A stretch of 64,000 bases of DNA from Egicoccus halophilus (GTDB taxonomy: Bacteria > Actinomycetota > Nitriliruptoria > Nitriliruptorales > Nitriliruptoraceae): the NCBI RefSeq assembly GCF_004300825.1, contig NZ_CP036250.1, positions 3,359,001-3,423,000 of the forward strand. Reading direction: 5' to 3'. The stretch's first letter is position 1. Every line of letters starts with the position of its first letter. Shown piece by piece: positions 2,511 to 48,363 of the stretch. A program made the translations under genes and the position numbers. The notes beneath the pieces were generated by a model. The model ran no database searches. It was not told the origin of the DNA and saw nothing but the letters and a program-made list of their open reading frames with translations.

Positions 2511-2549
2511 CCCGCCTCGCCGCCGAACGACGGCAGGAACGCGCCAGCC

Positions 2550-4201: not shown

Positions 4202-4204
4202 ACC

Positions 4205-4223
4205 CCGCAGCGGTCGGCTGCGG
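4205..4223. terminator. Hairpin between convergent genes
   Basis: CCGCAGC, a 5-base loop and GCTGCGG form a perfect 7-bp stem between the end of the ctaG-like gene and the end of the DinB-methyltransferase gene. There is no T-run, as is common at high GC. It is placed to stop transcription from both sides. Confidence 0.45.
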
Positions 4224-4232
4224 CGTGGGTCG

Positions 4233-5372: not shown

Positions 5373-5402
5373 GCTAGGAGCCCCGGCGCCGCCGCGGGGC
5401 GG

Positions 5403-6356
5403 TCAACCGATCGGGTCCCCCGGGATCGGCAGGCCGCGCCGGAGTCGGTCGGCGGCCTCCTCCGGGTCGACCCCCTCCGGCAGGCGCGACTTCACGACCC
5501 GCGCGGGCACGCCGACCGCGATCGAGAACGGCGGGATGTCGACGTTGACGAGACAGTGGCTCGCGATCACCGAACCCCGACCGACGTCGACGCCCCGCAG
5601 GACCGTGGCCTTCTCCCCCACCCACACGTCGCCGCCGATGCGGACCGGGGACTTGACGATGCCCTGGTCCTTGATCGGCACGTCGAGCCGGTCGAAGCGG
5701 TGGTCGAAGTCGCAGACGTAGATCCAGTCGGCGAGGATCGAGGCGTCCCCGATCTCGACGTCGAGGTAGGTGTTGACGACGTTGTCGCGGCCCATCACCA
5801 CCTTCGCGCCCAGGGTGAGCTGCCCCTCGTGGGCGCGCAGCTTGTTGTCGTCACCGATCCAGCACCAGGGCCCGAGCACGAGCCGTCCGTGCCCCGGGCG
5901 GCCGCGGAACTCGACCCGCCGGCCGGTGAACACCACGCCCTGGAACACGACGTGGTTGCCGGTCGCGGCGGCGCGGGCGCGGTGCCAGGCGTGGCGCTGG
6001 TAGAGCCGGAGGTACTGCGGGGTGAGCATGCGGCGTTCGACCGCGTGGCGGACGGCCTGCCGCCAACCCCAGCGGGGGTAGTGCAGCCGCATGGGCGGCC
6101 GCCGGACGTGGTCGGGCAACGGCCGCTCGGCGAGCAGGTCGGCGACCAGGCGGCTGGCCCGCCGGTGCCCCTCGCGGGCCGTCTCGGCACGGACCGTCGC
6201 CTCGGTGTGCTCGTGCAGCGCGGCGCGCGCGGCCTCCTCCACGTCCGCGGCGGACGTGGGCACGTCCGGCCCCAGGTGCGCCGGTGGGGCCGCATCGGGC
6301 ACCGGGGCGTTCGCGGGCGTGGCGGCCGCGTCGGCGGCGTCGTCGGGCACGGTCAC
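5403..6356 (-). CDS. Hexapeptide-repeat (left-handed beta-helix) acyltransferase
   Basis: 317 residues from a GTG at 6356 that overlaps the preceding gene's TGA (GTGA), which is why I choose this start over longer upstream options. Residues 1-130 are a helical, charged N-terminal region. From about residue 150 the protein shows imperfect hexapeptide coils (IGDDNKL, LGAKVVMGRDNVV, IGGDVWVGEKATVLRGVDVGRGSVIASHCLV), ending in the IAVGVPARVVKSR cap typical of the CysE/LacA/NodL acyltransferase superfamily. It probably transfers an acetyl or acyl group to a sugar or glycolipid. Coupling to a methyltransferase and an epimerase suggests surface polysaccharide or glycolipid work. Confidence 0.82.
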   Translation of the reverse strand: MTVPDDAADAAATPANAPVPDAAPPAHLGPDVPTSAADVEEAARAALHEHTEATVRAETAREGHRRASRLVADLLAERPLPDHVRRPPMRLHYPRWGWRQAVRHAVERRMLTPQYLRLYQRHAWHRARAAATGNHVVFQGVVFTGRRVEFRGRPGHGRLVLGPWCWIGDDNKLRAHEGQLTLGAKVVMGRDNVVNTYLDVEIGDASILADWIYVCDFDHRFDRLDVPIKDQGIVKSPVRIGGDVWVGEKATVLRGVDVGRGSVIASHCLVNVDIPPFSIAVGVPARVVKSRLPEGVDPEEAADRLRRGLPIPGDPIG

Positions 6357-29808: not shown

Positions 29809-30246
29809 TCAGGCTCCCGCACCGAAGTCGGGGATCGTGATGGAACCGTCGTCGTCGAGAGCGAACCCGGGGTTGTACGCGATCTCCCAGACGTGGCCGT
29901 CGAGGTCGGCGAAGCAGCCCGCGTACCCACCGTAGAACGTCTCGGCCGGATGCCGGGTGATCGTGGCTCCCGCGTCCGCGGCGGCGGTGACGACGGCATC
30001 GACCTCCGCTGGTGAACGAACGTTGTGCGCGAGCGCGATGCCGCCGAAGCCATCGGCTCCGGTGTCCTCGACACCCGAGTCCGCGGCGAGCTTGTCGCGA
30101 CCCCACAGGACGAGGCCGATGGCGCCCGCCTGGAAGAAGACGGTCTCCTCGACCTCCTGGCCGCGCCATCCCAGCTGCTCGTAGAAGTGGCGTGCGCGGC
30201 CGAGGTCAGCGACACCGAGCGTCACGAGGCTCAACCGTTGTTCCAT
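29809..30246 (-). CDS. VOC superfamily (glyoxalase/bleomycin-resistance fold) protein
   Basis: 145 residues from ATG 30246 with AGGAG about 8 bp upstream. Two beta-alpha-beta-beta-beta modules are visible: [25 protein letters not shown] and [59 protein letters not shown], the standard glyoxalase I-like pattern. Members bind metal and perform isomerisation, dioxygenation or drug binding. The exact function is unknown. The frame remains open upstream through the 9-bp repeats, but the ribosome-binding site argues for the start given here. Confidence 0.85.
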
Positions 30247-30310
30247 CGCGGGGCTCCTGGTGGGTGCCGGACCGAACCTAGGGTTCCGCATCGACTGCGG
30301 AGCGGCCCAC

Positions 30311-30489
30311 TGCACTGGCTGCACTGGCTGCACTGGCTGCACTGGCTGCACTGGCTGCACTGGCTGCACTGGCTGCACTGGCTGCACTGGCTGCACTGGC
30401 TGCACTGGCTGCACTGGCTGCACTGGCTGCACTGGCTGCACTGGCTGCACTGGCTGCACTGGCTGCACTGGCTGCACTGGCTGCACTGG
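30311..30489. repeat. Tandem array of about 20 copies of a 9-bp unit (TGCACTGGC)
   Basis: TGCACTGGC repeats without interruption from 30311 to 30489, the last copy ending in TGCACTGGG. It lies between the divergent VOC gene and the first RHS gene, about 250 bp from the RHS start. All frames are open through it: the minus strand would read Val-Gln-Pro repeats and the plus strand Leu-His-Trp or Gly-Cys-Thr repeats. No expressed protein clearly uses it. Perfect identity of copies implies recent expansion or gene conversion, so the copy number may vary between strains. Confidence 0.9.
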
Positions 30490-30497
30490 GAGACCTT

Positions 30498-30534
30498 CTA
30501 CAACTGTTGCAGAATCCACGAACCAAGCTTCGTG
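30498..30534. promoter_or_regulatory. Two inverted repeats upstream of the first RHS gene
   Basis: CTACAACTGTTGCAG (30498-30512) is a palindrome with one mismatch. CACGAA-CCAAGC-TTCGTG (30517-30534) is a perfect 6-bp stem. They are directly after the 9-bp repeat array and about 200 bp before the RHS start, in a stretch of lower GC. They may be regulator sites for the RHS gene. The rest of 30535-30735 shows no gene. Confidence 0.35.
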
Positions 30535-30735
30535 CGTCTGGTGCTCGCGCGCGCAACCCACCTGAAATTTCGCTGTTTGGCAGCTGAGAGGTAACTGAAG
30601 GCGGCCAGTGGCCATTTGGGCAGTGACCGTGGCCGGCTCGTGGTGCGGGGTGGCGCGTGAGGACCTTCGCAGGTGTGTGAGCATTCGCTTCGGTATGTGG
30701 CCGGGGTGGCCGCGTCGGGGGTTGAGGGGTTTCAG

Positions 30736-33700
30736 GTGCTGGTCGTGCGCGTTCGTGGTCCGCTGGTGGTGCTGCTGATCTGGGCGTTGGTGGCGGCGGT
30801 GGCGCCGGTGGCGGCGGTGGCGCAGCCGGTGGATGCCGAGATGGAGGTCTCGGAGTCGGTGGCGGCGGAGCCGGAGTCGCCGGTGGCCTCGGGCGCGGTG
30901 GTGCCGGTGCGTGAAGATGCATTGGCGGCGTCGCTGTCGGCGGTGGGTTCGGGGCAGCGGGTGCTGGTGGAGTCGGCGACGTCGGAGACTTCGCAGACGT
31001 TTGCGAATCCTGATGGCACGTTCACCGATGAGGTGCATTTCGGTCCGCAGCGGGTGTTCGATGTGGAGGCCGGCGATGCGGGGGCCTGGCGGGAGATCGA
31101 CACGCGCTTGCAGCGCTCCGAGGGGGCGGTGGTTCCTCGGGTGACTGCGGCGGAGGTGTCGTTCTCGGCCGGGGGTGTTGGCCCGATGGTGGAGTTGGGT
31201 GACGGCGAGGGGCAGGGGGTGACGTTCGACTGGTCCGGTCTGTCGTTGCCCTCACCGGAGTTGGACGGCAACGTGGCTCGTTACCGTCAGGTCCAGCCGG
31301 GGCTCGATCTAGAACTCGAGGCGTTGCCGGCGGGGTACGCCAAGCGGCTCGTGCTGCACGAGCGTCCCGCAGCACCGGTGACGTGGAGGTTCGAGGTTTC
31401 GGCTGAGCGCCTGGAGGTTGTCGAGCCGGCTGAGGGCGGGCTGGAGCTGGTCGATGCCGATGACGAGGCGGTCATCGTGGTCGATGGGCTGTACATGTGG
31501 GGAGCTGAGCGCAACGAACAGGCAGACGAGCCGGCTCGGGTAGCGGAGGTCGAGCATCGGTTGGTACGGCGGGGTGGCCGCACGGTGTTGGAAATCACGC
31601 CCGACTTCGGGTTCCTGTCGGATCCGCAGGTGCAGTTGCCGATCACGATCGATCCGACTGCGTCGTTGGCGATCGCGCAAGACACCTTCGTGCAGTCGAA
31701 CCTGGCGAGCACGCCGCAGGCCTCGGCGACCGAGCTGCGGGTGGGGACCTATGACGGCGGGACGTCGCGAGCGCGTACGTTGATCCAGTTCGATCCTGCG
31801 CCGCTGGCCGGCAAGGACGTCGAGTCGGCTTCGCTTCAGCTGTACAACTTCCACTCGTGGTCGTGCACGGCACGGCAGGTCAACGTCCGGCGGTTGTCGG
31901 CGCCGTTCAATAGTTCGACGACCTGGTCGAATCAGCCGGCCTCGCCCTCGACGGTGTATGCGTCGGCGTCGTTCGCTCGCGGCCACTCGAGTGCGTGTGC
32001 GGCCGGGTGGGCGTCGTTCGACGTGACCGATCGTGTCCGCCAGTGGGTGAACGGCGAGACGAACAACGGGCTGATGCTGCTCGCCGCGGACGAGACGGAC
32101 AACGCGGGCTGGAAGAAGTTCTATTCGTCTGAGCACGCGACCGGTTCGCAGCGGCCGAAGTTGACGGTCACCTACAACACGTACCCGAATCTGGTCGCGG
32201 GCCGGGCGTCGGACGACAGCCAGTTCTCGACCGGCACGGTCGCCTATGTCCCGACGTTGACGCCGATGCTGCGCGGGACGTTCTGTGATGGTGACGCCGG
32301 CACGTCGGGCCGGGTGGTGTTCGAGGTGTTCGACGCCACGAAGTCGACGCGTGTGGCCACGGTCAACGGCAACAGCGGCGTGAGTTGCCATTCATCGACC
32401 GGCCGGGTGCCTGCCGGTGTGCTGTCCGACGGGCAGAGCTACTACTGGCGTGCCCGAGGGTTCGACGGCAAGCTGTACTCGCGGGAGTACTCGTCGTGGA
32501 TCCATCTGGTTCCGGACGTGACCCGTCCGATAACACCGAGGATCTCCTCGACGACCCATGAGGTGGCAACGGAGTCGGACGTGACCTCGGTGGCGTTCGA
32601 CTGGACGGTCTCGACCGATGGGAACAACGGTTCGGGGGTAGCTGGCTACGCGGTCGAGTTCGATCAGGATCGTTGGACCACGCCGAGCGGCCCGCTGCAG
32701 ACAGCCACGAGCTTCGCCAAGGCGAACGTCGAGGGCGGGATCTGGTGGTTGCATGTGCGGGCGCGTGACCGGGTCGGCAACTGGAGCACGATCCGCCGGT
32801 TCCAGGTCAACATCTCGGCTGGCAGCCTGGTCGCCCCCGAGACGGGCGACCGGACCCAGCGGCGCATGGTGTTGCAGGCGATGGGGCCGGTGCGGTTGAG
32901 CACGGCCACGTTCCAGTGGCGACGTAGCGACAGCGACGCGTGGACGACGGTCCCCGCCGCCAGGTTGGCGTTGGCCAGCTCGCCCTCGGTGCCGCTGACC
33001 TCGTCGGTTCAGCCGTTGAGCGAACAGATGGCGGGCGAGGCAGCAGGCCGGTATCGAACGTCGCGCGAGCTGGTGTGGGATCTGGCCGCCACGGTGGGGA
33101 GCGTGGACGGGCCGGTGCAGGTCCGGGCGCTGTTTGACGACGGGTCGGCCTCGAAGGTCGCCAAGGTCACGTTGGACCAGCTGGGTGCGGGCAAGGACTA
33201 TGGCACGGTGCCGCTCGGGCCGGGCCAGGCGAACCTGCTGACCGGGAACTTCTCGATGACCGACGCGGACGTGTCGGTCACCGGGACCACGACCGATCTG
33301 ACCGTGACCCGCAGCTACAACAGCCGTGCAGACCTGACGCAGATCGATCCGCTGTTCGGTGCGGGTTGGACCTCCGGCGTGCCGGTACTCGACGCCGGAG
33401 CCGGCTTCCGGCTGCTCGAGACGCCGGAGCATGCCTCGGCGAGCACGCCGGCGCCGTTCGTGGTCGTCGAGGACGTCGAAGGGGCGGAGTTCTGGTTCGA
33501 CACGCCCGAAGCCCACGATGGTGGGCACCGCTACCAGGCGGTCGAAGCCGGGTTCGAGGACCTGACGTTGACCCATCGGGGATCGCAGTATGTGTTGAGC
33601 GATCTGGACGGCATGCAGGTCACGTTCCGGTCCCACGAGGCCGAATCGTTCGTGCCGGAGGTGGTCAAGCACACCCCGGACGCGGCCGCGACCAGCATCA

Positions 33701-36700
33701 CCTACAGCAGGATCGGGGGCATGCTGCGCCCCACGACGTTGCGTGCTCCCGGCCCTGCCGGAGCAGCCTGTGGACAGCCCGGACCGGGCTGTCGGGCGCT
33801 GCATCTGGTGTATGACCCGCCCAACGCTTCGACATCGCGGTTGCAGTCCGTGCAGCTCGAAACGTGGGATGCGGCCAACACCCGGGCGGTGCGTGACGTG
33901 CTGGTGTCCTACGAGTATGACGCGGCCCGTCGGCTGGTCGGTGTGGTCGATCCGCGGACGGGTACGACCCGGTCGACTCAGCTTGCGACCACGTTCGGTT
34001 ATGCCGGGAGCACGGCACGGCTGACCACGCTCACCCCGCCTGGGGTCGAGCCGTGGACGTTGGTGTATGCCGCGTCCTCGGGCCCTGAGGCGGGCCGGTT
34101 GCAGGCGGTCGAGCGTGCCGAGCCGGGATCCGGGGTCAACCGGTGGACGTTGGTGTACGACGTGCCCCGTACCGGGTCGGGTGCGCCGCATCCGATGGGT
34201 GACACCGAGCTGGACCGGTGGGGACAGGCTGGCCGGAACCTGCCCACGGACGTCACGGCCGTGTTCCCGCCCGAACAGGTTCCGTCCTCGACCTCGGCCG
34301 CGTCGTTGACCGCGGCCGGCTATGCCCGGGCCGAGGTGCACTATCTCGACCGCAACGGCCGTAGCGTGAACGTCGCCTCGCCTGGCGGGCGGATCTCGGT
34401 CACCGAACATGACGTGTACGGCAACGTGGTCCGTGAGCTCACCCCGGCGAACCGGGCGCAGGCGTTGACCGAGCCGGACACGCAGGCAGCAGCCGGGCTG
34501 TTGGCCACGGTCCGGCTGTTCGATGCTTCGGGTCTGCGGCTGGAGCGCGAGCTCGGACCGCAACATCAGGTGCAACTGTCCAATGGTGAACTGCAGCTGG
34601 CCCGTCGCCACACCCGCCACCACTATCCGCAGATCCCGACGGCGGATGGCTCGGACACCGAGACCGCGACGTTGCCGACCTCGAGCTGGGTCGGTGCGCT
34701 CCTGACCAGCGGCCAGGTGGTCGACGAACAGTTGACCCAGACCGAGTACGACTGGAAGTTGCGGCTGGCGACCCGCCAGACCCTCGATCCGGACGGGCTG
34801 GGGCTGGTCACGGTGACCCGCTACGACGATGAGGGACGCGAGATCGAGCGGCGGCAGCCGTCCGAGGCCGATGGTGGTGGTCCTGGCACGCTGCGTACGG
34901 TGCGCTACACCGCGCCGGCGAACCCGACCTATCCGCAGTGTGGCGGCCGGCCGGACTGGCACGGGCAGGTGTGTCTGATCACCCCGGCAGCGCAGCCGGC
35001 CATGGCGTCCGGACTGCCAGGGCTGGCGACCATCCACACGGCCGGCTACAACCGGCTGTTGCAGCCCACCCAGGTCGCGGAGAGTGTTCCTCGCGCGGGT
35101 GGCGGCACGACCGTGCGGACCACGACGACCAGCTACGACACGGCCGGCCGGGTCACCCGCGTTGCGGTGACGGCCGGTGCTGGCAGCACGATCGGTACCG
35201 CGGTCGCCGAAACCACCACCGTCTACGACCCCGCGACCGGGGCGGTCTCCGAGACCCGTTCGGATGGCCGCACGCTCGTGCGCAGCTACGACCGGCTCGG
35301 ACGGCTCACCAGCTACACCGACAGTGTCGGCACACACGGCCAGACCCGCTACGACCGGTTCGGACGTGTCGCCTCGGTCGGTGATGGTCTTGGCACCCGC
35401 AGCTTCACCTACGACGACACGACCGGCTACACCACCGCAGTCACCGATTCGCAGGTGGGCAGCTTCACCGCGTCGGTCTCCGACTACGACGGTGACGGGA
35501 CGTTGCGTCGCTGGACCACCCCGGCAGGCTGGCGGCACCAGACCACCCTCGACCCGGCCGGGAACCCGGTCGGACAGCAGATCACCCAGACCCGTAACTG
35601 CGGTCCGGGCGGCTGTCTGTCGTTCGACGAGCACGTCACGGTCGACATCCACGGCCGGTGGGTAGCCCACGTGCGTGCCGGAATGGCCCGCAGCTACCGC
35701 TACGACGGCGCCGGACGTCTGATCACCGCGACCGATGCCGGCGCGGCCTGCCAGATCCGCGAGTACGCCTTCGACGGCGCGGCCGGTGCCAACGCCAACC
35801 GCTCGTCGAAAGCCGTGACCCGTGCCGGCGCCGACGGCAACTGTGATCTCGACACCCGGACCACCACCGACTACGCCTACGACCAGGCCGACCGGCTGCT
35901 GTCAGGCACCGTCTACGACGGGCTCGGCCGCACCACCCGGGTTCCTGCCGGACTGCTCGAGGGCCACGGACAACTCGACGCGACCTACTACGCCAACGAT
36001 CTGGTGCACTCCCTGACCCAAAACGGCCAGCGTCGGACCTACACGCTCGACCCCGCGATGCGGTTCGCGTCCGAAACCCGCCAGGACGGCACCACCGACC
36101 GGTGGCGCTACGCCGACGACACCGACGCACCCGCCTGGATCGACCACCCCGGCCTCGGCTGGACCCGACACGTCACCGGTATCACCGGCGACCTGGCCGC
36201 GACCATCACCTCCCCCGATGGCGCGACCACGACCATCACCGAACAGCTCACCGACCTGTTCGGCTCCGTCATCGCCAACGTGGGCAACGACCCACAAGCA
36301 GCAATCCCCGGCACCACCGTGCTCGCCACCAGCATCACCGACGAATACGGCGCACCACTCGACACCACCACCATCACCGGCCGCTACCACTGGCTCGGCG
36401 GTAAGCAACGCGCCGCCGTACTCGCCTCCGGCGCGATCCTCATGGGCGTACGCGCCTACCTCCCCCAACTCGGCCGATTCCTCCAGATCGACCCCGTCAT
36501 CGGCGGCTCCGCCTCCGCCTACGACTACTGCTACGCCGACCCCATCAACTGCACCGACCTCGACGGAAAACGCGCACGCTGGAGCCGACTGGTCGGACGC
36601 TGGTACCGCGGTATCCGCCGGACGGGCCATGTGGTCCGCGCCGCTCGGAACACACCGTTCACTGCCGGCGCATACCTCTGGGGGCGCGCGTGGGGAGGCA

Positions 36701-36969
36701 CCTGCACCCGCCAGCGAGGACTCATGATCACATGCACGGGCATGCGTGGAGGTCACGCTCGAGGCGGAACCCAAGTAGGAAACGTCTTTCTGACGAGAGA
36801 CCGGAGTGTTAGTCCATCGCTACTGCGGCATGAATCGAGGCACGCCACACAATGGGCAGTCATGGGCTTTGCGTTCCCGCTTGCCTACCTGGCGGGGGGC
36901 ACCAACCCGTGCCGGAATTGGGCAGAACGGCAAGCCGGCCTCAAAGCCGGGAATTATGACTGGTGCTGA
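30736..36969 (+). CDS. Secreted RHS/YD-repeat protein with DNRLRE domain and C-terminal zincin-like toxin domain
   Basis: 2,077 residues from GTG 30736, chosen because GAGGGG precedes it and a signal peptide follows ([25 protein letters not shown]); GTG 30673 is an alternative. Residues about 310-480 are a DNRLRE domain ([41 protein letters not shown]). YD repeats follow ([20 protein letters not shown]), then the RHS core end ([33 protein letters not shown], about 1910-1945). The last 130 residues are unlike the core, AT-richer, and contain [12 protein letters not shown] (HExxH, His near 2032) and NWAERQAG, a possible third zinc ligand. The build is that of a polymorphic toxin: an exported shell with a variable C-terminal metallopeptidase-like domain. 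A lipoprotein gene follows at once. Confidence 0.88.
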
Positions 36970-36977
36970 CGGTGAAA

Positions 36978-37487
36978 ATGTGGTTTCTAATCGTCGTTTC
37001 CATCATCCTGGCGGGTTGTCTTCCTAGCGAACCTGTTCCGTCAATTGGCATTTCTATCACCACGTCTGAACGGAATCCTCGCGATCTCGTTATACGTTAC
37101 GCCCTGTGCCAAGGGGATGCGGTAACTGACATAATAATGGAAACATGGACTGGCAATGTAGATGATTACGGAACCGACGTCCATCTTCATGCGACGGGCA
37201 TATACCCCGACAGACCGGCGGACGATTTGCCGGATCAAACCGTGGCTATCTCATTGAGTGATCCGCCGAACAGTATCGATGTTCACGTCGATGATAAGTT
37301 CACCGTTCGCGACGACGCGGACTATTCGCTGACCGTCCGAACTACGAGAATAGAAACTGGCATCCTATTCAACTGGGATGACTTGCGTACAGATGAGATC
37401 TATACATTTGATGGCTACTTCTCACCCGAAGAGTTCGAAGACCACTTCGATTGCCGACGTCGAAGGAATCTAAGTAGCGGGACATAA
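36978..37487 (+). CDS. AT-rich lipoprotein, candidate immunity protein for the first RHS toxin
   Basis: About 169 residues from ATG 36978 (GTG 36963 and 36972 are alternatives overlapping or abutting the RHS stop). A short signal peptide ends in the lipobox IILAGC. The mature part is acidic and beta-rich (DLVIRYALCQGDAVTDIIMETWTG, TVRDDADYSLTVRTTRIET) with no known motif. Base composition is visibly lower in GC than the chromosome, as for the toxin C-terminus. The 8-bp distance to the RHS stop suggests cotranslation. Immunity is inferred from position and surface location; an exported inhibitor would meet the toxin outside the membrane. Confidence 0.65.
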   Translation: MWFLIVVSIILAGCLPSEPVPSIGISITTSERNPRDLVIRYALCQGDAVTDIIMETWTGNVDDYGTDVHLHATGIYPDRPADDLPDQTVAISLSDPPNSIDVHVDDKFTVRDDADYSLTVRTTRIETGILFNWDDLRTDEIYTFDGYFSPEEFEDHFDCRRRRNLSSGT

Positions 37488-37603
37488 CAGGCAGAACGGC
37501 AGCCGTTCACAACACCTCGCCAACGACCTCGTGCACCCCCTGCCAAAAACGGCCAGCGTCGGACCTACACGCTCGACCCCCTATGCGGTTCACGTCCGAA
37601 ACC
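37488..37603 (+). pseudogene. Left part of an orphan RHS gene fragment
   Basis: From about 37500 to 37603 the sequence is a degraded copy of the first RHS gene near 35990-36080 (CCAGCGTCGGACCTACACGC, then CTCGACCCC and GCGGTTC are shared), with small indels that break the frame. It continues at 39006 beyond the ISL3-type element. It is the remnant of another RHS core, without a C-terminal toxin domain. Confidence 0.75.
37596..37603. repeat. Target-site duplication of the ISL3-type element, left copy
   Basis: CCGAAACC directly abuts the left terminal inverted repeat; the identical 8 bp follows the right end at 39006-39013. Eight-bp duplications are typical of the ISL3 family. Confidence 0.85.
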
Positions 37604-39005
37604 GGGTCTTCCCCACTGAGGTGGGTCACGCCGCGGTGGTGAAGCTGTAGGACCTGATCCTCGTGGTCGTCGGGACCCTACGCGGCTGGCCGGCGTGGAG
37701 CCGGATCCGGGCCGCGTAGTTGCCGCAGTTGCGGAACCTCGGGCGGCCCGCCGGATGGACTTGATCTTGACGTTGGCGGACTCGGTCGGGGCGTTGGAGG
37801 CGCGGGTGTCGAAGAACGCGAGGACCTCCTTCTGCCAGGTGTCGATGGTCTTGGCGAGCCGGATCACCTCGTCGATTTCGACCAAGACTCGTAGAACGTG
37901 ACGAGCCGGCGGTGGGCGGTGTCACGATCGGGCGCCTGGTACATCCGCCGCAGTAGGTCGACCGCGATCCAGGCGGCCGCGACTTCATCGTCGGTGTCTT
38001 CGGCACGCAGCCGGTCGAAGATCTTCGCGAGCACCTGCCCGTCGAGCCGTTCTTGGCCGACCCGCAGGACGCGGCGGAGTTTGAACAGCGGATCATCTTT
38101 GTGACCGCGGTGGCCGTGGATCTGCTGCTGACGGCGTCGTCAGACCTCATCGAGCGCGTGCAGCGCGAGCCTGACGAGGTGGAACACGTCGGCGACCACG
38201 GTCACGTCTTCGAGGGTGTCGGCGGCCGCCTTGAACCCGGAGAACAGATCACACGCGACAACCTTGGCGTCGGGGGCGTGTTCGGCCAGCAGCGCGGTCG
38301 CAGAGCCCTTGTCACGCCCTTGGGAGACCGCGACGACCAGGGAGGTGTCCAGACAGACCAGTGCGGTGAGAAACTGCCGGCGACGTTCAAGCAGCCGGCC
38401 GGTGGTCATCACCGTCTCATCGATCCCCACCCGTGTCGGTGAGACCTTCGCCACCTGGTCAGCCGCAGCCAGGACGGCGCGCATCACGGTGTTCCACCCG
38501 ACGCCGAAGCGACAGGGATCGTGTCGATCGGTGTGTTCGCTTCCGCCATCGCCACCGCCGCCCGGGCGGCGGCACGACTCCAGACCGCACCAGGCGCGAC
38601 CGAAGGGGTCCGCTCGACGAAGGTGCCGCAGCCCTCGACACAGGCCAGCAGCCGCTTGCGCCACACCACCCTCGTCGCGCGTCCAGCAACCGGCAGGTGA
38701 CGGACGGTGTGGCGGCGCCAGTCGTGCAGCGGGTGCCGTTCGAGCGTCCCGCAGCGGCTGCAGGGCTGGACGCCGCGGGGCAGTTCGACGACGGCTACGA
38801 GCTCGTCGTGCTCGTCGATGCGGGCGTCGGTCAGGATGAACTCGGGCAGGGCGAGCAACAGCTCGCTCCTCCCCTGGACAGGGGTAGGTTGGGACACGCG
38901 TACGGCCTCGGTCGCTCGGTTGGCTTAGACACCTCGAGCATCGAGGCCGTACGTGTCTTCACCAAGCATCCGAGACCGGGTCACCCACTACCAAGAGGAA
39001 GACCC
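37604..39005 (-). mobile_element. ISL3-family insertion sequence, decayed
   Basis: 1,402 bp bounded by imperfect terminal inverted repeats of about 26 bp that both begin GGGTCTTCC read inward (37604-37629 and complement of 38980-39005; GTGGGT is also shared further in). An exact 8-bp target duplication CCGAAACC flanks it. It carries one ISL3-type transposase gene on the minus strand, destroyed by a nonsense codon and several frameshifts. Insertion was into an RHS fragment, whose two halves align with the intact RHS gene across the element. Confidence 0.88.
37626..38897 (-). pseudogene. ISL3-family transposase, inactivated
   Basis: Pieces of one transposase are spread over several frames. The N-terminal zinc ribbon (PCSRCGTLERHPLHDWRRH, CVEGCGTF) is at 38484-38897. 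A middle part with GVGWNTVMRAV and VGIDETV (catalytic Asp), ACDLFSGFKAAAD and DVFHLVRLA is at 38140-38520. The C-terminal parts include LRRMYQAP, IDEVIRLAKTIDTWQ and the closing DDE-type region TESANVKIKSIRR. A TGA interrupts the frame at 38140-38142, and there are at least three frameshifts (near 38510, 37885 and 37740). It cannot make a working enzyme. Confidence 0.85.
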
Positions 39006-39013
39006 CCGAAACC
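39006..39013. repeat. Target-site duplication of the ISL3-type element, right copy
   Basis: CCGAAACC, identical to 37596-37603, directly after the right terminal inverted repeat. Confidence 0.85.
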
Positions 39014-39088
39014 CGCCAAGACGGCACCACCGACCAGTGGCGCTACGCCGACGACACCGACGCACCCGTCTGGATCGACCACCCCGGC
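39006..39088 (+). pseudogene. Right part of the orphan RHS gene fragment
   Basis: Continues the RHS fragment interrupted by the ISL3 element. It matches the first RHS gene at about 36073-36155 with few changes (GACGGCACCACCGACC, CGCTACGCCGACGACACC). The match stops at about 39088 and no RHS terminus or toxin follows. Joining the two halves at the duplication restores the alignment exactly. Confidence 0.8.
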
Positions 39089-39149: not shown

Positions 39150-39252
39150 GTGAGACACGACGCCCGCCCCCGACGTCAAGCCTCCAGGGCTGTGTCACAA
39201 CTCATGTCCATAATTCGTCTCACGTCACGACTGCCGTGACGGCTTGTGAGAC
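39150..39252. promoter_or_regulatory. Possible res site: repeated GTGAGAC motifs upstream of the recombinase gene
   Basis: GTGAGAC occurs at 39150-39156 and 39246-39252, and inverted (GTCTCAC) at 39217-39223. A perfect stem GTCACG-ACTGC-CGTGAC lies at 39224-39240. They precede the serine recombinase start by 15-120 bp, the usual place for the resolution site and self-regulating operator of a resolvase. No gene lies between 39089 and 39266. Confidence 0.4.
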
Positions 39253-39266
39253 GCGAGGACAACGGG

Positions 39267-39607
39267 ATGGCCATCGTCGGGTACGCCCGAGTCTCCACCA
39301 CCGAGCAAGACCCGCAGCTGCAGCTCGACGCGTTGACCGCCGCGGGTGCCGAGCGGATCTTCACCGACCACACCCGGGCACCACCGCAGTCCGCCCCCAG
39401 CTGACCGCCGCGATCGACTACCTCCGCGCCGGCGACACCCTGGTCGTCTGGCGCCTCGACCGGCTCGGCCGATCACTCCGCGACCTCATCGACCAGGTAC
39501 AGACCCTCGAGCAGCACCAGGTCGGACTTCGATCACTGCACGAAGCGATCGACACCACCACCCCAACCGGCCGGCTCACCTTCCACCTCTTCGGCGCCCT
39601 CGCCGAG
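39267..39607 (+). pseudogene. Serine recombinase (resolvase/invertase), 5' part, interrupted
   Basis: Starts at ATG 39267 with MAIVGYARVSTTEQDPQLQLDAL, the resolvase N-terminus with catalytic Ser in ARVST. At about 39380 a one-base deletion shifts the frame, after which RPQLTAAIDYLRAGDTLVVWRLDRLGRSLRDLI (with catalytic Arg residues) continues. The gene is then cut at 39607 by the IS21-type element inside GALAE. The 3' part is at 42155-42387. The element splits the codons so that removal restores GALAEFEREL. Confidence 0.85.
39603..39607. repeat. Target-site duplication of the IS21-type element, left copy
   Basis: CCGAG next to the left end; the same 5 bp follows the right end at 42155-42159. 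Confidence 0.8.
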
Positions 39608-39701
39608 TGTCAACGGACATCGGGATCTCCCCGGTGGCGGACGTGAGACCTCCCCGGTGGTGGACAGCAGTTCTCCCCAGCCGCGGACATGAGATCTCCC
39701 C
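39608..39701. repeat. Left-end transposase-binding repeats of the IS21 element (four copies)
   Basis: Four copies of roughly CGGACATGAGATCTCCCC with variation, at 39614-39632, 39638-39655, 39661-39678 and 39684-39701. They match the four inverted copies at the right end. Confidence 0.8.
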
Positions 39702-39707
39702 ACGGGG

Positions 39708-40481
39708 TCAGGCCAGGGGCGTCACCCCCTTGCCGTCGCGGGCTTGGGCGAACCGGTAGGAGTCGCCGTCGGTGACCACGACGTGGGCGTGGTGCATGAA
39801 CCGGTCGACCGCGGCGGTGGCGATGGTGGTGGGCAGCAGCTGGTCGAACCCGCCGGGGTGGATGTTGCTCGAGATGGCGACCGAGCGGCGTTCGTAGGCA
39901 GCATCGATCACGCGGAACAGCGCTTCGGCGGCTTCGGCGGGGACGGGGAGCAGGCCGATGTCATCGATGACGACCAGGTCGGCCTTCAACACCCGGTTGA
40001 CGGCTTTGGCGACCGAGTCGTCCGCACGATGTCGGGTGACGAGCCGGCCGAGGGACTCGATGGTGAACCACGCGACCATCAGCCCGTCATCGATTGCGGC
40101 CTGACCGAGGGCTTCGAGCAGGTGTGACTTCCCGGTCCCGGACGGTCCGACCACGGCCAGGTTCTCGGCCCGCCGGACCCATTCGAGGGTGCGTAGCGCC
40201 TGTTGGGTCGCCGCCGGGATCGTCGAGGCGGTCTCGCGCCAGGTGTCGAAGGTCTTGCCGGTCGGAAACCCGGCCCGGCGTCGGCGGTTGCGGATGGTGG
40301 CGGCGTCCCGGCCTTGCGCTTCCTCGGCGAGCAGGACCCGGACGAGCTCGGCAGGTTCCCAACGTTGCGCTTTGGCGGTGGGCAGCACGTCGACGGCGGC
40401 CTTGCGCAGGTAGGGCAGCCGCAGCCGTCGGGCGAGCGCTTCGACCTCGGCGTCGAGGGCTTGGGACTTCGAGACGGTCAT
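39708..40481 (-). CDS. istB: IS21 helper ATPase IstB
   Basis: 257 residues from ATG 40481, overlapping the istA stop (ATGA). A DnaA/DnaC-type AAA+ domain with Walker A VVGPSGTGKSHLLEALG, Walker B DLVVIDDIGLLP and sensor SVAISSNIHPGGFDQLL. IstB assembles on DNA and directs the IstA transposase to its target. The reading frame is complete, at typical IstB length. Confidence 0.93.
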   Translation of the reverse strand: MTVSKSQALDAEVEALARRLRLPYLRKAAVDVLPTAKAQRWEPAELVRVLLAEEAQGRDAATIRNRRRRAGFPTGKTFDTWRETASTIPAATQQALRTLEWVRRAENLAVVGPSGTGKSHLLEALGQAAIDDGLMVAWFTIESLGRLVTRHRADDSVAKAVNRVLKADLVVIDDIGLLPVPAEAAEALFRVIDAAYERRSVAISSNIHPGGFDQLLPTTIATAAVDRFMHHAHVVVTDGDSYRFAQARDGKGVTPLA

Positions 40482-42025
40482 CGGCCGACCTCCGCCCAAC
40501 GCGACGTGCCGGTCTGCAGCGAGTGCCCCTCGACGAGCGGGACCACGACCCCGTCACCGTTGCTGCGACGCCGATGCCGCAGAATCGAGGCGAGATCGCC
40601 TTCGGCGAACCGGCCGGCCTGCGCGGCGGCAGCCAGCGCGGCGTCGACCTCGGCCTGGTCGTAGACCGCGGCGAACTCGACCGCCTGGTTCATCTTCATC
40701 CGAACCCGCGCGGTCCCGGCCGCAGCGGCGGCGGTCAACCAGGCCGCCGCTCCCGGCCCGAGCGCGAGGAACGCGGCCTCGCCCGGCGTGCGAGGCGCCG
40801 GGCGGTGCTCGAGAATCTTCGACGCCGACCGGGGCGGGTAGTGCGATAGATCCAGCCGCGGCGTGCCGGGGGTGGAGACCAGGTGGCGGGCGACCTCGGT
40901 CACGCCGTCACGGCCCTGGTGGGCGATGACGACCTCGTCGCCGTCGACGCGGACGAACACGGTCTGGTCGATCAGCTGGTGTGGGACCGAGTAGCGCACC
41001 CCACCCAGCGAGATCACCGAACTGCGCGACACCACCCGGGTTTCGCCCAACGCGGCCACGTAGGGGTCACGGGGCACCGGGTGGAGCCGTGCCTGTTCCT
41101 CGGCGAGCATGTCGACCGGGGGCCGGCCGGTCTCACGATGCGGGCGGGCGTTGATGTGCTCACACCACATGGCGGCCTCAGCCCGCAGCTCGGCGAAGCT
41201 GTGGTAGGCGTCGCGCAGGTTCGCCGTGGTCGGGACCAGATCCGCCTTCGCGATCCGCACAGTCGCTTCCGAGCCGCCCTTGGACTCCGGATCGGCCGGC
41301 ACGCAGGTGGTGATCTGGGTGCCGTAGTGGCGGCCCGCGGCGGCCATGTCGGGATGGCGGACCGGGATCCCGGCGACATGCTCGGCCGTGACGGTCTTCT
41401 CGTTGTCGGTCAACGTGTAGGTCGCGATGCCCTCCACCCGACGGAACGTCTCGTCCAGGCACGACAGCACGGTCGGCAGGGTGCGGTCCCACACCGGGAT
41501 CACCACCCGGAAACGGCTCCACGCCAGCCAGGCACAAAACAGCAGCGTCGCCCGCCCGGCGATCCTCGGTCCGGTGCCCCAGTCGAACTGCAACCAGCCG
41601 CCCGGTTCAGTGATCCAGGGCCGATACACCCGACGTCGTCCCGCCGCGTAGTGGTACTTGGCCTCGGCAACCGCCCGGCGCGTCGTGCGGTCGGTGCCGT
41701 CAAACCCCATCGCGGTCAGCCGCTCGTGCACGACATCGGCCCGGATGTCGCCCTCGGAACGTTCGACGAGCTCTTCGATCTTGGCCCGGTAGCCGTCGAT
41801 CATCGACGGCCGCGGCACGCTGGCCGACGGGTCGGCAGCCGCGGCACGGCGCTCGACGTAATGCTTGACGGTGTGGTGGTCGCAGCCAGCCAACCTGGAC
41901 GCGCCGCGGTAGGTGCCCACGAGGTCGTAGGCCTCCAAAATCTCCATGATCTCTCCGGCAGACTTGATCCCGATCCCTCCTGGTCGGCGACGCTTCAGCA
42001 CCGCCGTCGTACCGGGAGGGATCAC
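40478..42025 (-). CDS. istA: IS21 transposase IstA
   Basis: 515 residues. An N-terminal helix-turn-helix (VGTYRGASRLAGCDHHTVKHYV) is followed by a DDE integrase core: FDWGTGPRI (first Asp), YTLTDNEKTVT (second Asp) and DPESKGGSEATVR (Glu). A C-terminal Mu-like beta-barrel region contains GGVRYSVPHQLIDQTVFVRVDGDEVVI. All three catalytic residues are present. First gene of the element, translationally coupled to istB. Confidence 0.94.
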   Translation of the reverse strand: MIPPGTTAVLKRRRPGGIGIKSAGEIMEILEAYDLVGTYRGASRLAGCDHHTVKHYVERRAAAADPSASVPRPSMIDGYRAKIEELVERSEGDIRADVVHERLTAMGFDGTDRTTRRAVAEAKYHYAAGRRRVYRPWITEPGGWLQFDWGTGPRIAGRATLLFCAWLAWSRFRVVIPVWDRTLPTVLSCLDETFRRVEGIATYTLTDNEKTVTAEHVAGIPVRHPDMAAAGRHYGTQITTCVPADPESKGGSEATVRIAKADLVPTTANLRDAYHSFAELRAEAAMWCEHINARPHRETGRPPVDMLAEEQARLHPVPRDPYVAALGETRVVSRSSVISLGGVRYSVPHQLIDQTVFVRVDGDEVVIAHQGRDGVTEVARHLVSTPGTPRLDLSHYPPRSASKILEHRPAPRTPGEAAFLALGPGAAAWLTAAAAAGTARVRMKMNQAVEFAAVYDQAEVDAALAAAAQAGRFAEGDLASILRHRRRSNGDGVVVPLVEGHSLQTGTSRWAEVGR

Positions 42026-42064
42026 TCGTTCACGACAACCGTGACGAGCACGATGGACAACACC

Positions 42065-42154
42065 GGGGAGATCTGATGTCCGCGGGGAGCTTTCGTGTCC
42101 GCCACCGGGGAGGTCCGCTGTCCGCCTACGGGGAGAATCTCATGTCCGCCGACA
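42065..42154. repeat. Right-end transposase-binding repeats of the IS21 element (four copies)
   Basis: Four copies of GGGGAG-n-TGTCCG (start positions about 42065, 42084, 42107 and 42130), inverted relative to the left-end set. Confidence 0.8.
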
Positions 42155-42387
42155 CCGAGTTCGAACGAGAACTCATCCGCGAACGCACCCACGCCGGCCT
42201 CCAAGCCGCACGCCAACAAGGCCGACGCGGAGGCCGACCCACCGTCATAACCCCACACAAACAACGGCTCGGCCGCCAGCTCTACGCCGACGGCCTCCCC
42301 GTCGAACGCATCGCCGCACACCTCGGCGTCAGCCGAGCCACCATTTACCGCCAGATCGTCACCCGACCACATCCGGCCACCGAGTGA
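42155..42387 (+). pseudogene. Serine recombinase, 3' part
   Basis: Resumes after the IS21 element at FERELIRERTHAGLQAARQQG, the conserved end of the resolvase catalytic domain (E-helix), then GRRGGRPTVITPHK and a C-terminal helix-turn-helix (YADGLPVERIAAHLGVSRATIYRQI), stop at 42385-42387. With the 39267-39607 part it makes a complete small resolvase of about 190 residues apart from one frameshift. The following 127 bp (42388-42514) hold no gene I can see. Confidence 0.85.
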
Positions 42388-43020: not shown

Positions 43021-43329
43021 TCACTCGCTACGACGACCGTGCAACATCTGATGTCCCTCAATCCGAAAGGCTAGCACAGGGACAACCCCGCCTATTATGA
43101 CCGCCGATACCAGACTTATTCCGAAGTACGGCGAAGAAACATCGCCGTCTGATATCAGGAGCCCTACCGACATTACACCTGCACCAATGGCAACTAGTAC
43201 CCAAACAGCGATCCTCTGCGTCCGTTCACTTCGGTCACGCTCAACACGCTTCCCGAACAGAACACGGATCGCAGCAGCCAAAGAGACTAGAGACGCGACA
43301 CCGAAACTAACCGCGATGACGATGGCCAT
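43021..43329 (-). CDS. Small membrane protein, candidate immunity protein for the second RHS toxin
   Basis: 102 residues from ATG 43329 (ATG 43335 two codons earlier is possible). Three hydrophobic segments (IVIAVSFGVASLVSLAAAIRVL; IAVWVLVAIGAGVMSVGLLI; FGISLVSAVIIGGVVPVLAF) and a basic loop FGKRVERDRSERTQR. GC content is clearly lower than the chromosome. In the frame-corrected second RHS gene the stop overlaps this start as TGATG, a hallmark of translational coupling. Function is inferred only from position; a membrane immunity protein would suit the hydrophobic toxin end. Confidence 0.65.
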   Translation of the reverse strand: MAIVIAVSFGVASLVSLAAAIRVLFGKRVERDRSERTQRIAVWVLVAIGAGVMSVGLLISDGDVSSPYFGISLVSAVIIGGVVPVLAFRIEGHQMLHGRRSE

Positions 43330-46300
43330 CAGCACGCCTCATTGGTGGACATGATCCCATACACCATCCCTACGACTCCGAGGGCGAGGCCAAACGCTGC
43401 CGCAGCCGCTGCCATAGACGCTCCGCCTGCGAGAGCAAAAACTAGGGCGGTATAATCGAACGACAATAGGAAGCTGCTTGCCAAGAGATTCCCGACCTGG
43501 GCTGCGCAGAGCGCGCCTTGGGCGCTGAGCCCGGTGGTGTCGGTGTAATTGACGGGGTTGCAGCCGGCGTAGGCGTAGGGGTTGGTTTCGGACGGCTGGA
43601 TCGGGTTGATGCGGTTGGCGGCGGGGTCGGCTTGGGTCCACCGTCCGAGCTCGGGTGCGAGGTAGCGGTGCCCGATCTTGTACAGCCCGGTCTGGGTGTC
43701 CTGGTATTCGCCGGCGAACCGCCACGGGTTGTCGACACAGGCGCTGGTGGGGCACCGTTCGTCGGTTTCGCCGTAGGGGGGCGTAGTCGTAGCGGTTGGT
43801 GACCGTGCCGGTCTGGTTGACGACCGCGATGACCGATCCGAGCCCGTCGGTCAGGTAGTACGAGCGGGTGGTGACCCCGCCGATGGTGCGGCGCTGGCCG
43901 AGCAGGGTCCCGTCCGGGCCGCGGGTCCAGGCGGTGCGTGCACCGGTCTCGACCATGCCGGTGACGCCGAGCAGTGACGAGACAAACGTCGCCGGACCGG
44001 CCGTGAGCCGCTCGGCCTGTCCTGCCCCGGCATACGAGGCCGGCAGCGCACCACCGGTGGGGGTGGTCATCGTCGTGGTGCGGTTGGCCCGGTCGTAGCC
44101 GAGCTGGTAGCCCCCACCCGAGATCAGGTTCCCGGCCGCGTCGTGGACGTAGCGGGTCGACCCGAACGGGTTGGAGGTGCAGTAGTTCGCCGTCGACACG
44201 GTCCCGGCAGGAATCGGGCCGGACCAGCACAGCTCCGACGCGGCGTCGTAGCCGAAGTACGTGGTGCTCTGCTGCACACCATCGACCGTGACACGATGGC
44301 GGGTCCGGTTGCCGGCACGGTCGTACTCGTAGAAGTGGCTGGACTGTCCAGACTGCCCGGTCGTGGCCCGCTCGAGCCGGCCCGCGTCGTCATAGCCGTA
44401 GGTGGTCGTCTCGTTGCCGGTGCCGTTGCCGTTGTCCAGCACGCGGGTCCTGCGCAACGATCCGGTGGTGTCGGCACCCTTGGGCGTGGGCGTGTAGGTA
44501 TAGGCCACCTCGGCCAGCGTCGACGTGCCCCGCTCCGCGATGATCTCTTCGATCTCGCCGTCGCCGAAGTACTCCATCTTCTGGGTGACGCGGGTGGTCC
44601 CGGTCGGAAACGACACCTCGTCGATCTCGTCGCTGTTGGACTTGTAGACGTAGCGGATGACGTGCCCGCCCGGTTCGGTGATCGTGGTGGGCAGGTTCAC
44701 CGCGTTGTAGGCGTAGCCGACCGTGCCGGCCGCATCCGTCATCGACGTGAGGTTGCCGACCGCGTCGTAGACGTAGTCGATCGTGCCACGACTGTCCGGG
44801 AACGTCTCACGGGTGATGTTGCCGTCCGCGTCGTACACCGTCCCGCTCGCATCGCTGCGGCTGGTCCGGTTGCCGTTGGCGTCGTAGCCGAACACGATCT
44901 GCTGCCCGTCGGGATAGGTCACCGACGTGGTCCGCCCCAACAGGTCGTAAGTGTAGACCGAGGTCCCCGACCCGTCGGTGATCCGGATCGGACGGTGCAG
45001 CGCGTCGTAGGCGTCGATCGTGACCCGACGACGCCCACCCGGCGGAGCGATCCTGATCAACCGGTGATCCTGGTCGTAGCTGTAGACCGTACGGTAGGTC
45101 GTCTGCGACCGGCTGGTCGCCCGCCCATCGGTCACCCACAACACGTTGCCGACCGAGTTGTGCTCGATGAACACCTCACCGCCCACCGGATCGGTGACCC
45201 GCTCGACATTGCCCGACGCGGTGTACCCGTACCCGGTCAGCTTGCCCTCCGGATTGTCATACCCGCCCGGCTGGAACGGCTCAGCCGCGTTGTCGAGATC
45301 GAACTCGTGCAACCGGCCCCCGGCCGTCAACGACGACACCAACCCCAGCCCGTCATCGGTGTAGCTGTTGGTCGTCTCCCCACCCTTGCTGTCGGTGAAC
45401 GAAGCGACATTGCCGAACGCATCGAACCCCGACGAGCGGCGGTTCCCACGCGCGTCCGTCACCCGGGTCACCCAACCACGCCTATCCGACAGGTAGCGGG
45501 TCACGTTGCTCCGCGCATCGGTCACGTCCGTCTGCGTCGGACCCTGCTCGAAGTCCGACCAGTCCAACGGTGTCGTGTAGCTGTAGGTGGTGGTCCCACC
45601 TCGCGGCCGCGTGACCGTCGCCACCCCACCACCGTTGATGACGGCGTTGGTCGGCTTGTAGGTGATGTCGTGGTGGGCACCCTTGGGATCGGTGATCCGC
45701 GACATCTGCCCGGACGTGCCGTACATGTAGCGGTGCACCCCACCCACGCTCGCCCCGCTGCTGTTCTGCAACGTCTGCGAGGTCAGGTTCGCACCGCTGT
45801 AGGAGTACACCGAACGGCGGCCGGTGTGATCGGTGATCCGGCTGACCAGCCCGGCAGCGTTGTAGGTCACCGTGAGAAACGACCCGCGGACCTGGTCGGT
45901 GATGCTCGAGACCCGACCGGCCGCGTCCGCACCCAACACGATCTCGTTGCCGTTGCGGTCGATGATGCGCCGCAGCCGGCCCGCACTGGTGAACACCTCG
46001 GTCGTCTTGGTCGCCCGGTCCTCGACCGTGAACATCTCGGCCGGGTTGCTCGCATCGAGCGTGATCCGCAGCTTGGACGAGTTCCGCGTCGAGACGTAGC
46101 TGCCGTTGCCGGTCCGGTCGATGAACGCCTGGGTCCACCCCGACGGGTGGGTGTAGGTGATCCGGTTGTTCGCCTGGTAGGTCCGGATGCGTGCCTGCGG
46201 ATCGATCATCGAGGTCCAACCCGCCCCGAACGCCCCGACATACTCCGACGACGAGTCCACGTGCTCGCTGGTGGAAATCCGGCGGGAGGAGTTGTAGGCC

Positions 46301-47948
46301 CGGTCCACCGTCAGATCGTGACCGGCCACCCCGGCGATCGTCAGGTCCGTGGCGGTGACATACAGGTTGCCCGTGGCCGCGTTGACCGCATACGACGAAC
46401 GGTCCGACACCGAGGTCTCGCCCACGAACGTGGTCTGGTCGGTCGCGCCGATCCCCCGCGACCACTGCACCTTCAAACGCGGGTAGTCCTGCCAGCGGGC
46501 CGCCTCCGAGGAGTGAAACCGCATCTCCCCCACCGCGGTCTCGTCACGGGCCGCCAGACGGAACCCGAACTCCCGCTCGCCGACCAGCTCACCGTTGGAG
46601 TAGCCATAGTCGAACCACTGCTGCACCTGTCGGGTCGGATACCAAAACACCCGGCCCGGCTCCGAACCCCAAAACGGATCGGATCCTGACGCAAGCGCAC
46701 CACGACCCGACCCAGGAATCTCCGGACCGACCGCGCCGCCACCTGCACCAGGGGTCGACCACCCCGCGCTCGCGGTCCGCTGGTTCCACGTCGCGCCGTT
46801 GTTGAACTCCTCGGTCAACGGCCGCAAGCTCGTGTCGAACCGTGGACCCGAATCGGCCGTCAACGCCATCGACAGCTCGGCACCCATCACGTGCACCGGC
46901 TCACGGCTCGCGATAGCCCAGGCGATCGCGATGTCGAAGTTGACGATGGTGCGCCGGATCGCACCCGACGCCATCCTCCCGACCCGCAGCCCATCCGCAC
47001 CACAGTAGGGCTTGTCCGCCAAGGTCGACGACGTCAACACGCAGTCGTAGCGTGGCGAATTGGTGAACGTCGGATCGATCGTGACCGGCCACTGCCGCTC
47101 CGGCGCGTCCAGCCAGTCATCGTCGGCGACCAGCCCGTACACCCACTCGTCACCGTCACGCTCCAACGACACCTCAAAATCGCTCGAGCGCACGTCGAAG
47201 TCGTCCGACGCGTCGATCATGAACGGCGCCGGCACCCAGAACTGGATCTCGCCTTCCGCATCGACGAACTCGACCTCGTTCCCCTCGGTCAACGTCGCCG
47301 TCAGCTCCGGCGCAGCAGCCAACCGCCAGCTATACGCCCGCGGTGCGGACGCATCCGCCAACACCACCTCTTCTTTCACCCCGGACGGCGTGGCGGTCAA
47401 CCGCAGGTCGACCTCACCCATCGGACAGGTCACCGCCGCGCCATCCACCACCGGCACGACATCCTCGACGTCCTCGACGAGGCTGGCCACCCCCACGGCC
47501 TCCCCCGCCGCCTCGAACGCGAACTCGACCCAGCCCTGCTCGGTCTCGAACCGGGCCGGCTCGTCCACCGCCCCCGGCAGCACGAGCTCGTGATCCACCG
47601 CCTTGGGCGTAAACCCGTCGGCCGTACGCTCCAGGTCGGTGTCGATCTCGACCCAGCCGCCCGACCCGTCACGGGCATGTACCGGACCGGCCGCGATCTC
47701 GGTCACAAACGAGCCGTCCGACAGCTCAAAGGTCGCCGAGGTCGCCGTGCGTGCCTCGAGAAGCTCGCCCACCCGCACCACCGGCGTCGGCTCACCCGCC
47801 GGCATGCCGGTGTCCGCAGGAAGCTCGCTCTCCCCTACCGCTTCGAACACCTCAGGAGCAGCAAGCCTCGGCGCCACCTGTGCGGACACCGGGGTCACCC
47901 CCACCGCCACAACGCCACCGACAACACGCCAACAAGCGCACGCGACAT
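43329..47948 (-). CDS. Secreted RHS/YD-repeat protein with hydrophobic C-terminal domain; two apparent frameshifts
   Basis: Start ATG 47948 after a G-run; its frame (MSRALVGVLSVAL) breaks inside the signal peptide, and one missing base would lead into VAVGVTPVSAQ. The main frame then covers an N-terminal region with AGPVHARDGSGGWVEIDTDLERT, DNRLRE-like segments (TIVNFDIAIAWAI..VQQWFDYGYSNG), a DUF6531-like AATGNLYVTATDLTIAG and many YD repeats (YDADGNITRE, YDAVGNLTSM). A six-C tract at 43776-43781 is one base too long. Correcting it gives YAPYGETDERCP, the core end LGRWTQADPAANRINPIQPSE, YAYAGCNPVNYTDTTGLS and a roughly 65-residue hydrophobic tail. The two indels cancel (4,620 nt in all, whole codons). 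Without correction the frame ends at 43339 in Arg/Pro-rich nonsense. Confidence 0.82.
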
Positions 47949-48048
47949 CAAGACCCCCCCTACCCCGTTTCCCGTCTTCGCAGCCGACACCGATGCCGAC
48001 CTGGACCTCCCCCCTGCAGCCGGACACCCTGGATGACAGGATGTCCGC

Positions 48049-48363
48049 ATGGGACACGACAACGAACGACGACAACCAAGACCGCGCCGCAAGTTCTCCG
48101 ACGAGTTCAAGCGCGACGCGGTCGACCTGGTGCTCACGACCGGCCGCCCGGTCGCGGAGGTCGCCGCGGAGCTGGGGATCTACGACTCCACGCTGGGCAA
48201 CTGGGTGCGTCGCCACCAGGACGAACAGGCCGCCGGCAGCGGCATCGCACCTGACGAGCGCGCCAGATTGAAGGAGCTCGAGGCGGAGAACGCCAAGCTT
48301 CGGATGGAGCGTGATCTGCTCAAACGAACCGTGGCCTTCTGGGTGAAGGAGTCACCGCAGTGA
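48049..48363 (+). CDS. IS3 transposase OrfA
   Basis: 104 residues. A Tnp_1-type helix-turn-helix (FSDEFKRDAVDLVLTTGRPVAEVAAELGIYDSTLGNWVRRH) is followed by a leucine-zipper coiled coil (ERARLKELEAENAKLRMERDLLKRTVAFWVKE). OrfA binds the element ends and dimerises. Its stop overlaps the OrfB start (GTGA), so OrfB may be made by coupling or by frameshifting into a fusion. Confidence 0.93.
   Translation: MGHDNERRQPRPRRKFSDEFKRDAVDLVLTTGRPVAEVAAELGIYDSTLGNWVRRHQDEQAAGSGIAPDERARLKELEAENAKLRMERDLLKRTVAFWVKESPQ

Follow-up and report, generated by a model that had tools for sequence, protein, structure and literature searches.

What does the far C-terminus of a large RHS protein in Egicoccus halophilus do, and does the lipoprotein gene behind it belong to the same device? 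The window analysed here (64,000 nucleotides, positions 3,359,001 to 3,423,000 of contig NZ_CP036250.1, assembly GCF_004300825.1) carries an RHS open reading frame (ORF) of 2098 aa (30673-36969, + strand), which ends in a small zincin-like domain, the tip, and is followed by a gene for a predicted lipoprotein, P0001. The two had been proposed as a toxin-immunity pair in a sequence-only reading of this DNA. The answer favoured here, at about three chances in four, is that the tip is an exchangeable, antibacterial C-terminal metallopeptidase toxin on a Sec-exported RHS protein, which would act outside the cytoplasmic membrane and have the lipoprotein as its antidote. Independent lines of evidence support each of three points: that the tip is a zincin, that it can be exchanged and that it pairs with a surface lipoprotein.

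The tip and its carrier

The RHS protein is matched by Pfam models PF24517 (2.2e-18), PF05593 (1e-09) and PF20148 (5.7e-07), and by the NCBIfam Rhs core model TIGR03696 over residues 1891-1965 (6.8e-10). Since this core model stops at residue 1965, the tip corresponds to residues 1966-2098. The locus thereby shows what marks out Rhs polymorphic toxins, namely a variable tip straight after the Rhs core and, further downstream, a displaced core remnant from a replaced tip. The drop in GC content after the core, which had already been noticed, is confirmed: GC is 0.687 in the gene before the tip (0.85 at third codon positions, GC3), 0.647 in the tip (0.597 in its second half, GC3 0.63) and 0.496 in the lipoprotein gene, the minimum for any 510-nt stretch of the window.

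The claim that this region encodes a zincin of about 130 residues also stands. The tip has 133 residues and contains HESRH and ERQAG, the latter within the NWAERQAG that was originally reported, and an alignment of 34 family members shows G71, H88, E89, H92, Q95, Y107, E120 and A123 to be invariant. These residues include both the gluzincin-type pattern (HExxH plus a downstream Glu ligand, that is, H88, E89, H92 and E120) and the HExxHxxQ...E signature of eCIS_core/DUF4157. Judged from this alignment, the motif matches in the tip are not due to chance, and its AlphaFold2 model is confident (predicted local distance difference test, pLDDT, 91.4; predicted template modelling score, pTM, 0.84). 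As for its affiliation, eCIS_core (PF13699) is matched at E<=0.1 by 17 of the 34 family members (best 5.2e-5), and the RHS tip of L056 exceeds the gathering score of that model. Because about half of the relatives thus match eCIS_core, if weakly, and because the nearest viral folds in the BFVD collection of predicted structures (best match an unnamed protein, E 2.8e-4) include, among weaker matches, a 'Vgr2b binding' protein (E 0.09, prob 0.93) and a DUF4157 protein, the tip is, on sequence and predicted fold, a diverged DUF4157/eCIS_core-type zincin. PADLOC and PHROGs returned nothing.

Proposed pairing with a lipoprotein and exchange of the tip

The product of the gene behind the tip has a signal peptide with a lipobox cysteine (VVSIILAGC / IILAGC), which qualifies it as a bacterial lipoprotein by a PROSITE-type rule and, together with its low GC, agrees with its earlier description as a lipoprotein of alien composition. 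Its start was placed 8 bp after the toxin stop, and an ATG (36978) does lie 8 nt past it, but translation probably begins at the in-frame GTG 36963, which overlaps the Cys-stop codons of the toxin (GTGCTGA) and brings in the basic residue of the signal peptide, since two other RHS-tip loci, L074 and L202, display an identical -7 start/stop overlap.

The pairing itself was assessed with one rule for all family members, which called a next gene anchored when it encodes a lipobox or membrane anchor and starts -30 to +60 nt from the stop. Six of the 8 RHS tips (4 with lipoproteins, 2 with membrane anchors) have such a neighbour, versus 1 of 118 free-standing relatives (Fisher p ~4e-8, an optimistic figure as the controls are mutually related); for lipoproteins alone, the counts are 4/8 and 0/118 (p ~7e-6, optimistic likewise), and an earlier, looser linkage test had pointed in the same direction. 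L089, in which a zincin-like C-terminal ORF precedes a TolB-like lipoprotein, did not enter the counts, as an RHS core was not seen in its frame. L055 counts as negative because its lipoprotein begins further downstream, and this lipoprotein is homologous to P0001 (z=9.6), with the motifs YALC.G..V and F..DDL.T..I common to both. The proposed pairing of tip and lipoprotein is therefore supported by its recurrence behind RHS-fused, and not free-standing, copies and by the homologue at L055.

Could the tip be a toxin and the lipoprotein merely an unrelated cargo gene in the same horizontally acquired island? This would agree with the behaviour of the lipoproteins, of which that behind L055 is the only clear homologue of P0001 among the paired ones. 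Searches with P0001 alone, covering the class, plasmids and the phylum, gave no homologue beyond chance, a profile of the window and L055 lipoproteins found one further relative (L213) in 376 genomes, and a joint alignment of all paired lipoproteins gave nothing credible except window/L055/L213. The skewed linkage, the homologous lipoprotein behind L055 and the repeated -7 overlap speak against bystander cargo, which we regard as unlikely, and divergence among paired lipoproteins is usual for immunity proteins. L213 is not next to a zincin, so the lipoprotein family is wider than this pairing.

Exchangeability, also part of the original proposal, is supported by what lies downstream. RHS tip replacement is known to leave its mark as a displaced core downstream of the incoming tip and immunity gene, and such a core copy, decayed and split by an ISL3-type insertion element with an 8-bp target duplication (CCGAAACC, at 37596-37603 and 39006-39013), follows the lipoprotein gene (Table 1). 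The order tip, anchored protein, RHS-core fragment is also found at L072. By this sequence evidence an older tip has been replaced at the window locus, the core remnant downstream marking the event. The same fragment could be invoked for the view that the tip has no peptidase activity and is a degenerate relic or a structural leftover, since it betrays a rearranged, partly decayed locus, and the family has no activity on record. We think this very improbable, as none of the catalytic residues has been lost, nor Gln95 or any of the cysteines, the frame is open over its full length and the predicted fold is confident.

Several results weigh against a toxin-immunity pair of DUF4157 type. The window tip itself matches no Pfam family at E<=1 (eCIS_core included) and no NCBIfam model, and sequence and fold searches of the PDB found nothing significant for it; the marginal, non-significant fold matches include the zincins PprI and VgrG2b, the latter (6h56) with E 7.4 and a template modelling score of 0.27 only. 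The tip is therefore not assigned to eCIS_core or Tpe by membership, and the early guess of a DUF4157-like peptidase holds at superfamily level; the companion statement that no named toxin family was recognisable agrees with the search against toxin-domain models. To this must be added the relatedness of the linkage controls, the RHS tip of L053, which lacks an anchored neighbour, the absence, in most cases, of recognisable homology between lipoproteins from different pairs (z below 4), L213, which adjoins a DUF1801-like gene, and the AlphaFold2 model of the lipoprotein, which is poor (pLDDT 56) and was not used.

Table 1. Features of the RHS locus, in window coordinates.
Feature	Position	Strand	Basis or remarks
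Toxin tip, 133-aa zincin-like metallopeptidase domain (predicted)	36568..36966	+	Family alignment, AlphaFold2 model, eCIS_core matches of relatives
HESRH, tip residues 88-92 (two predicted zinc-ligand His and catalytic Glu), then invariant Gln95	36829..36843	+	Invariant, 34 sequences
Glu120 of ERQAG, predicted third zinc ligand	36925..36927	+	Invariant, 34 sequences
Candidate immunity lipoprotein (P0001)	36963..37487	+	Start GTG 36963 (alternatives 36972, 36978); lipobox Cys codon 37017-37019; PROSITE-type rule
RHS carrier part	30673..36567	+	N-terminal hydrophobic signal sequence, CBM96/DNRLRE domain, DUF6531, YD/RHS repeats, Rhs-associated core
Displaced, decayed RHS-core copy, left part	37518..37603	+	90.9% identical to 35991-36078
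Displaced RHS-core copy, right part	39006..39088	+	96.4% identical to 36071-36153
ISL3-type insertion element splitting displaced core	37604..39005	.	Inverted ends GGGTCTTCC; Pfam PF14690/PF01610 on 38140-38897(-)

The surroundings hold a few further features. Mobile-element pieces occupy 39236-42387, with resolvase parts around an IS21-type istAB pair; the resolvase appears to be split by the IS21 element, because 42076-42387 reads like a resolvase C-terminus. A second RHS gene (43339-48216, -), whose frame appears to depart from the RHS core near its 3' end (possibly by a frameshift), is followed by an ORF for a small membrane protein (43021-43335, -). Upstream, between a glyoxalase-like ORF (29809-31038, -) and the RHS start, 30310-30489 is a perfect 9-bp tandem repeat of ~180 bp (Leu-His-Trp or Pro-Val-Gln, depending on frame).

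Free-standing and fused relatives

A single-sequence search of genome contigs with the tip returned no relative. Plasmids searched by tblastn gave two weak but co-linear matches, in Arthrobacter and Nonomuraea, and a class search gave matches in Acidimicrobiia; the family was opened by aligning both sets together and searching with the resulting profile, which matched in 92 of 396 actinobacterial genomes (37 from the window's own class, the window's own genome among those). A pattern scan yielded 161 loci, of which 80 were kept, mostly Arthrobacter relatives and Nonomuraea, and L010 (a Streptomyces plasmid), L014 and L210 (a Sua5-like ORF) were examined and set aside as chance matches. The majority of relatives are small free-standing proteins. 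The RHS tips are a minority made up of the window, L203, L202, L072, L074 (with near copies L100/L102), L055 (where the upstream ORF starts with the end of an RHS core), L056 and L053. Distant actinobacteria thus show the two genes in this order as well, their RHS-fused tips being followed by lipoproteins or by secreted proteins with a membrane anchor.

RHS-type tips have in common four cysteines (C46, C56, C115 and C133), complete in the window, L203, L072 and L202, with three of the four in L074 and in the orphan tip-like ORF L201, and the full set is found in no free-standing member. These cysteines fit a life outside the cytoplasm.

The window's own genome also encodes a free-standing copy, L045 (C1:2017000-2024000, zincin 3218-3823, -), directly behind ileS and opposite divIVA and sepF; ileS, divIVA and lspA were also recognised by eye near the free-standing copies of L002, L003 and L007. 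Across Acidimicrobiia, a free-standing homologue is kept next to ileS and divIVA, joined in some cases by sepF or lspA, which places a conserved zincin in a cell-division gene neighbourhood. A tree separates the window tip from its genome's own free-standing copy (branch support 100/99) and puts it near L070/L071-type proteins, which rules out derivation from the ileS-linked gene and argues for a tip that was acquired, not copied from the chromosomal gene. It is a long shot, but the toxin class might have been recruited from a conserved actinobacterial envelope zincin (the one that lies between ileS and divIVA-sepF in Acidimicrobiia), with a disulfide-braced, weaponised form attacking the envelope or division process served by the free-standing form, and with surface lipoproteins evolved as antidotes.

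Other carriers of the domain deserve mention. In L083, an EspA/EspE-family ESX-type protein (3087-4484, -; PF18879 EspA_EspE, 3e-21) has the same zincin C-terminus and is followed by a tandem-duplicated lipoprotein (2116-3087, -), which suggests that toxin and immunity protein are paired in the same way on a different secretion route. L208 encodes a PrsW-like membrane protein (3811-6192, -) with a C-terminal HEQQHVYQ zincin domain and a lipoprotein gene two genes downstream, and L082 a probable PE-type protein (2218-3525, +; PE-like N-terminus seen by eye, not by a model) that ends in a related HExxHxxQ domain. The RHS protein of L053 (1-3240, +) sits with its related zincin tip inside a phage-tail/contractile-injection-like gene cluster.

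Known systems and the proposed mode of action

How does this candidate pair compare with what is known? The closest likeness is to VgrG2b C-ter/PA0261 and Tpe1-Tpi1, in which a DUF4157-type peptidase is toxic in the periplasm only, in an HExxH-dependent manner, and is neutralised by a binding partner, the immunity orthologues being periplasmic, lipoproteins or membrane-anchored (PMC6899460). As proposed here, the HExxH toxin is C-terminal on a delivery protein, and a gene for an extracytoplasmic immunity protein with cysteines comes next (PMC6899460). Those pairs, however, belong to proteobacterial type VI secretion systems, whereas the window encodes a predicted Sec-exported RHS protein in a monoderm actinobacterium, and the match in sequence and PDB fold is not significant. 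The tip also has the HExxHxxQ-E signature of PVC-metallopeptidases (eCIS_core, PF13699, DUF4157), on whose model its relatives score and it does not, and RHS-fused toxins of this kind were already recorded in a survey of 2012 (PMC3482391), where the table rows consulted on peptidase toxins give no immunity protein. The survey also describes Tox-MPTase1-5, small RHS-borne HExxH zincin tips like this one, the Pfam models of which the window tip does not match even at E<=1.

Another possibility is that the tip serves to process or release its own RHS protein, as eCIS_core/PVC-metallopeptidases often do, with the lipoprotein as its surface anchor. PVC-metallopeptidases in polymorphic toxins are mainly releasing peptidases (PMC3482391), and one toxin of an extracellular contractile injection system is cited in PMC11297309 as inhibiting growth independently of its DUF4157 motif. 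The window domain, however, sits at the extreme C-terminus, past the RHS core and with no further cargo behind it, a position in which the same survey takes such copies as toxins (PMC3482391), and the lipoproteins are divergent and variable in the manner of immunity proteins. A release function is thus quite unlikely.

There are precedents for a lipoprotein antidote. Imm65 of Bacteroidetes, the sole lipoprotein immunity in the 2012 survey, counters a metallopeptidase toxin, Tox-JAB-1, but differs in toxin fold and phylum (PMC3482391). Surface lipoprotein immunity has been shown in a monoderm, S. aureus, where TilA counters the extracellular toxin TslA, which is unlike the tip in being a lipase delivered by the type VII secretion system (PMC10730906).

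By analogy, the tip and P0001 would work like Tpe-Tpi on an RHS carrier. We infer that (i) the RHS protein is exported via Sec, (ii) its shell would deliver the tip to a neighbouring cell, (iii) the tip would work outside the cytoplasmic membrane of this target, hence the predicted disulfides, by cleaving an envelope protein, (iv) the lipoprotein, on the outer face of the producer's own membrane, would bind and block the tip and (v) tip and immunity genes may have been gained together, displacing an older tip.

In conclusion, we would class the tip as a diverged, unnamed branch of the DUF4157-type toxins, accompanied by a candidate immunity lipoprotein that had not been described before. Among metallopeptidase pairs that have been tested, those nearest to it in the literature examined are proteobacterial type VI effectors. 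If the reading holds, this would be an unnamed actinobacterial toxin-immunity family, on RHS or ESX carriers, in which a metallopeptidase acts outside the monoderm cell and is held in check by a lipoprotein on the cell surface. Its substrate would then be an exposed, essential envelope protein, for which the conserved free-standing relative in a division gene cluster offers a concrete candidate pathway.
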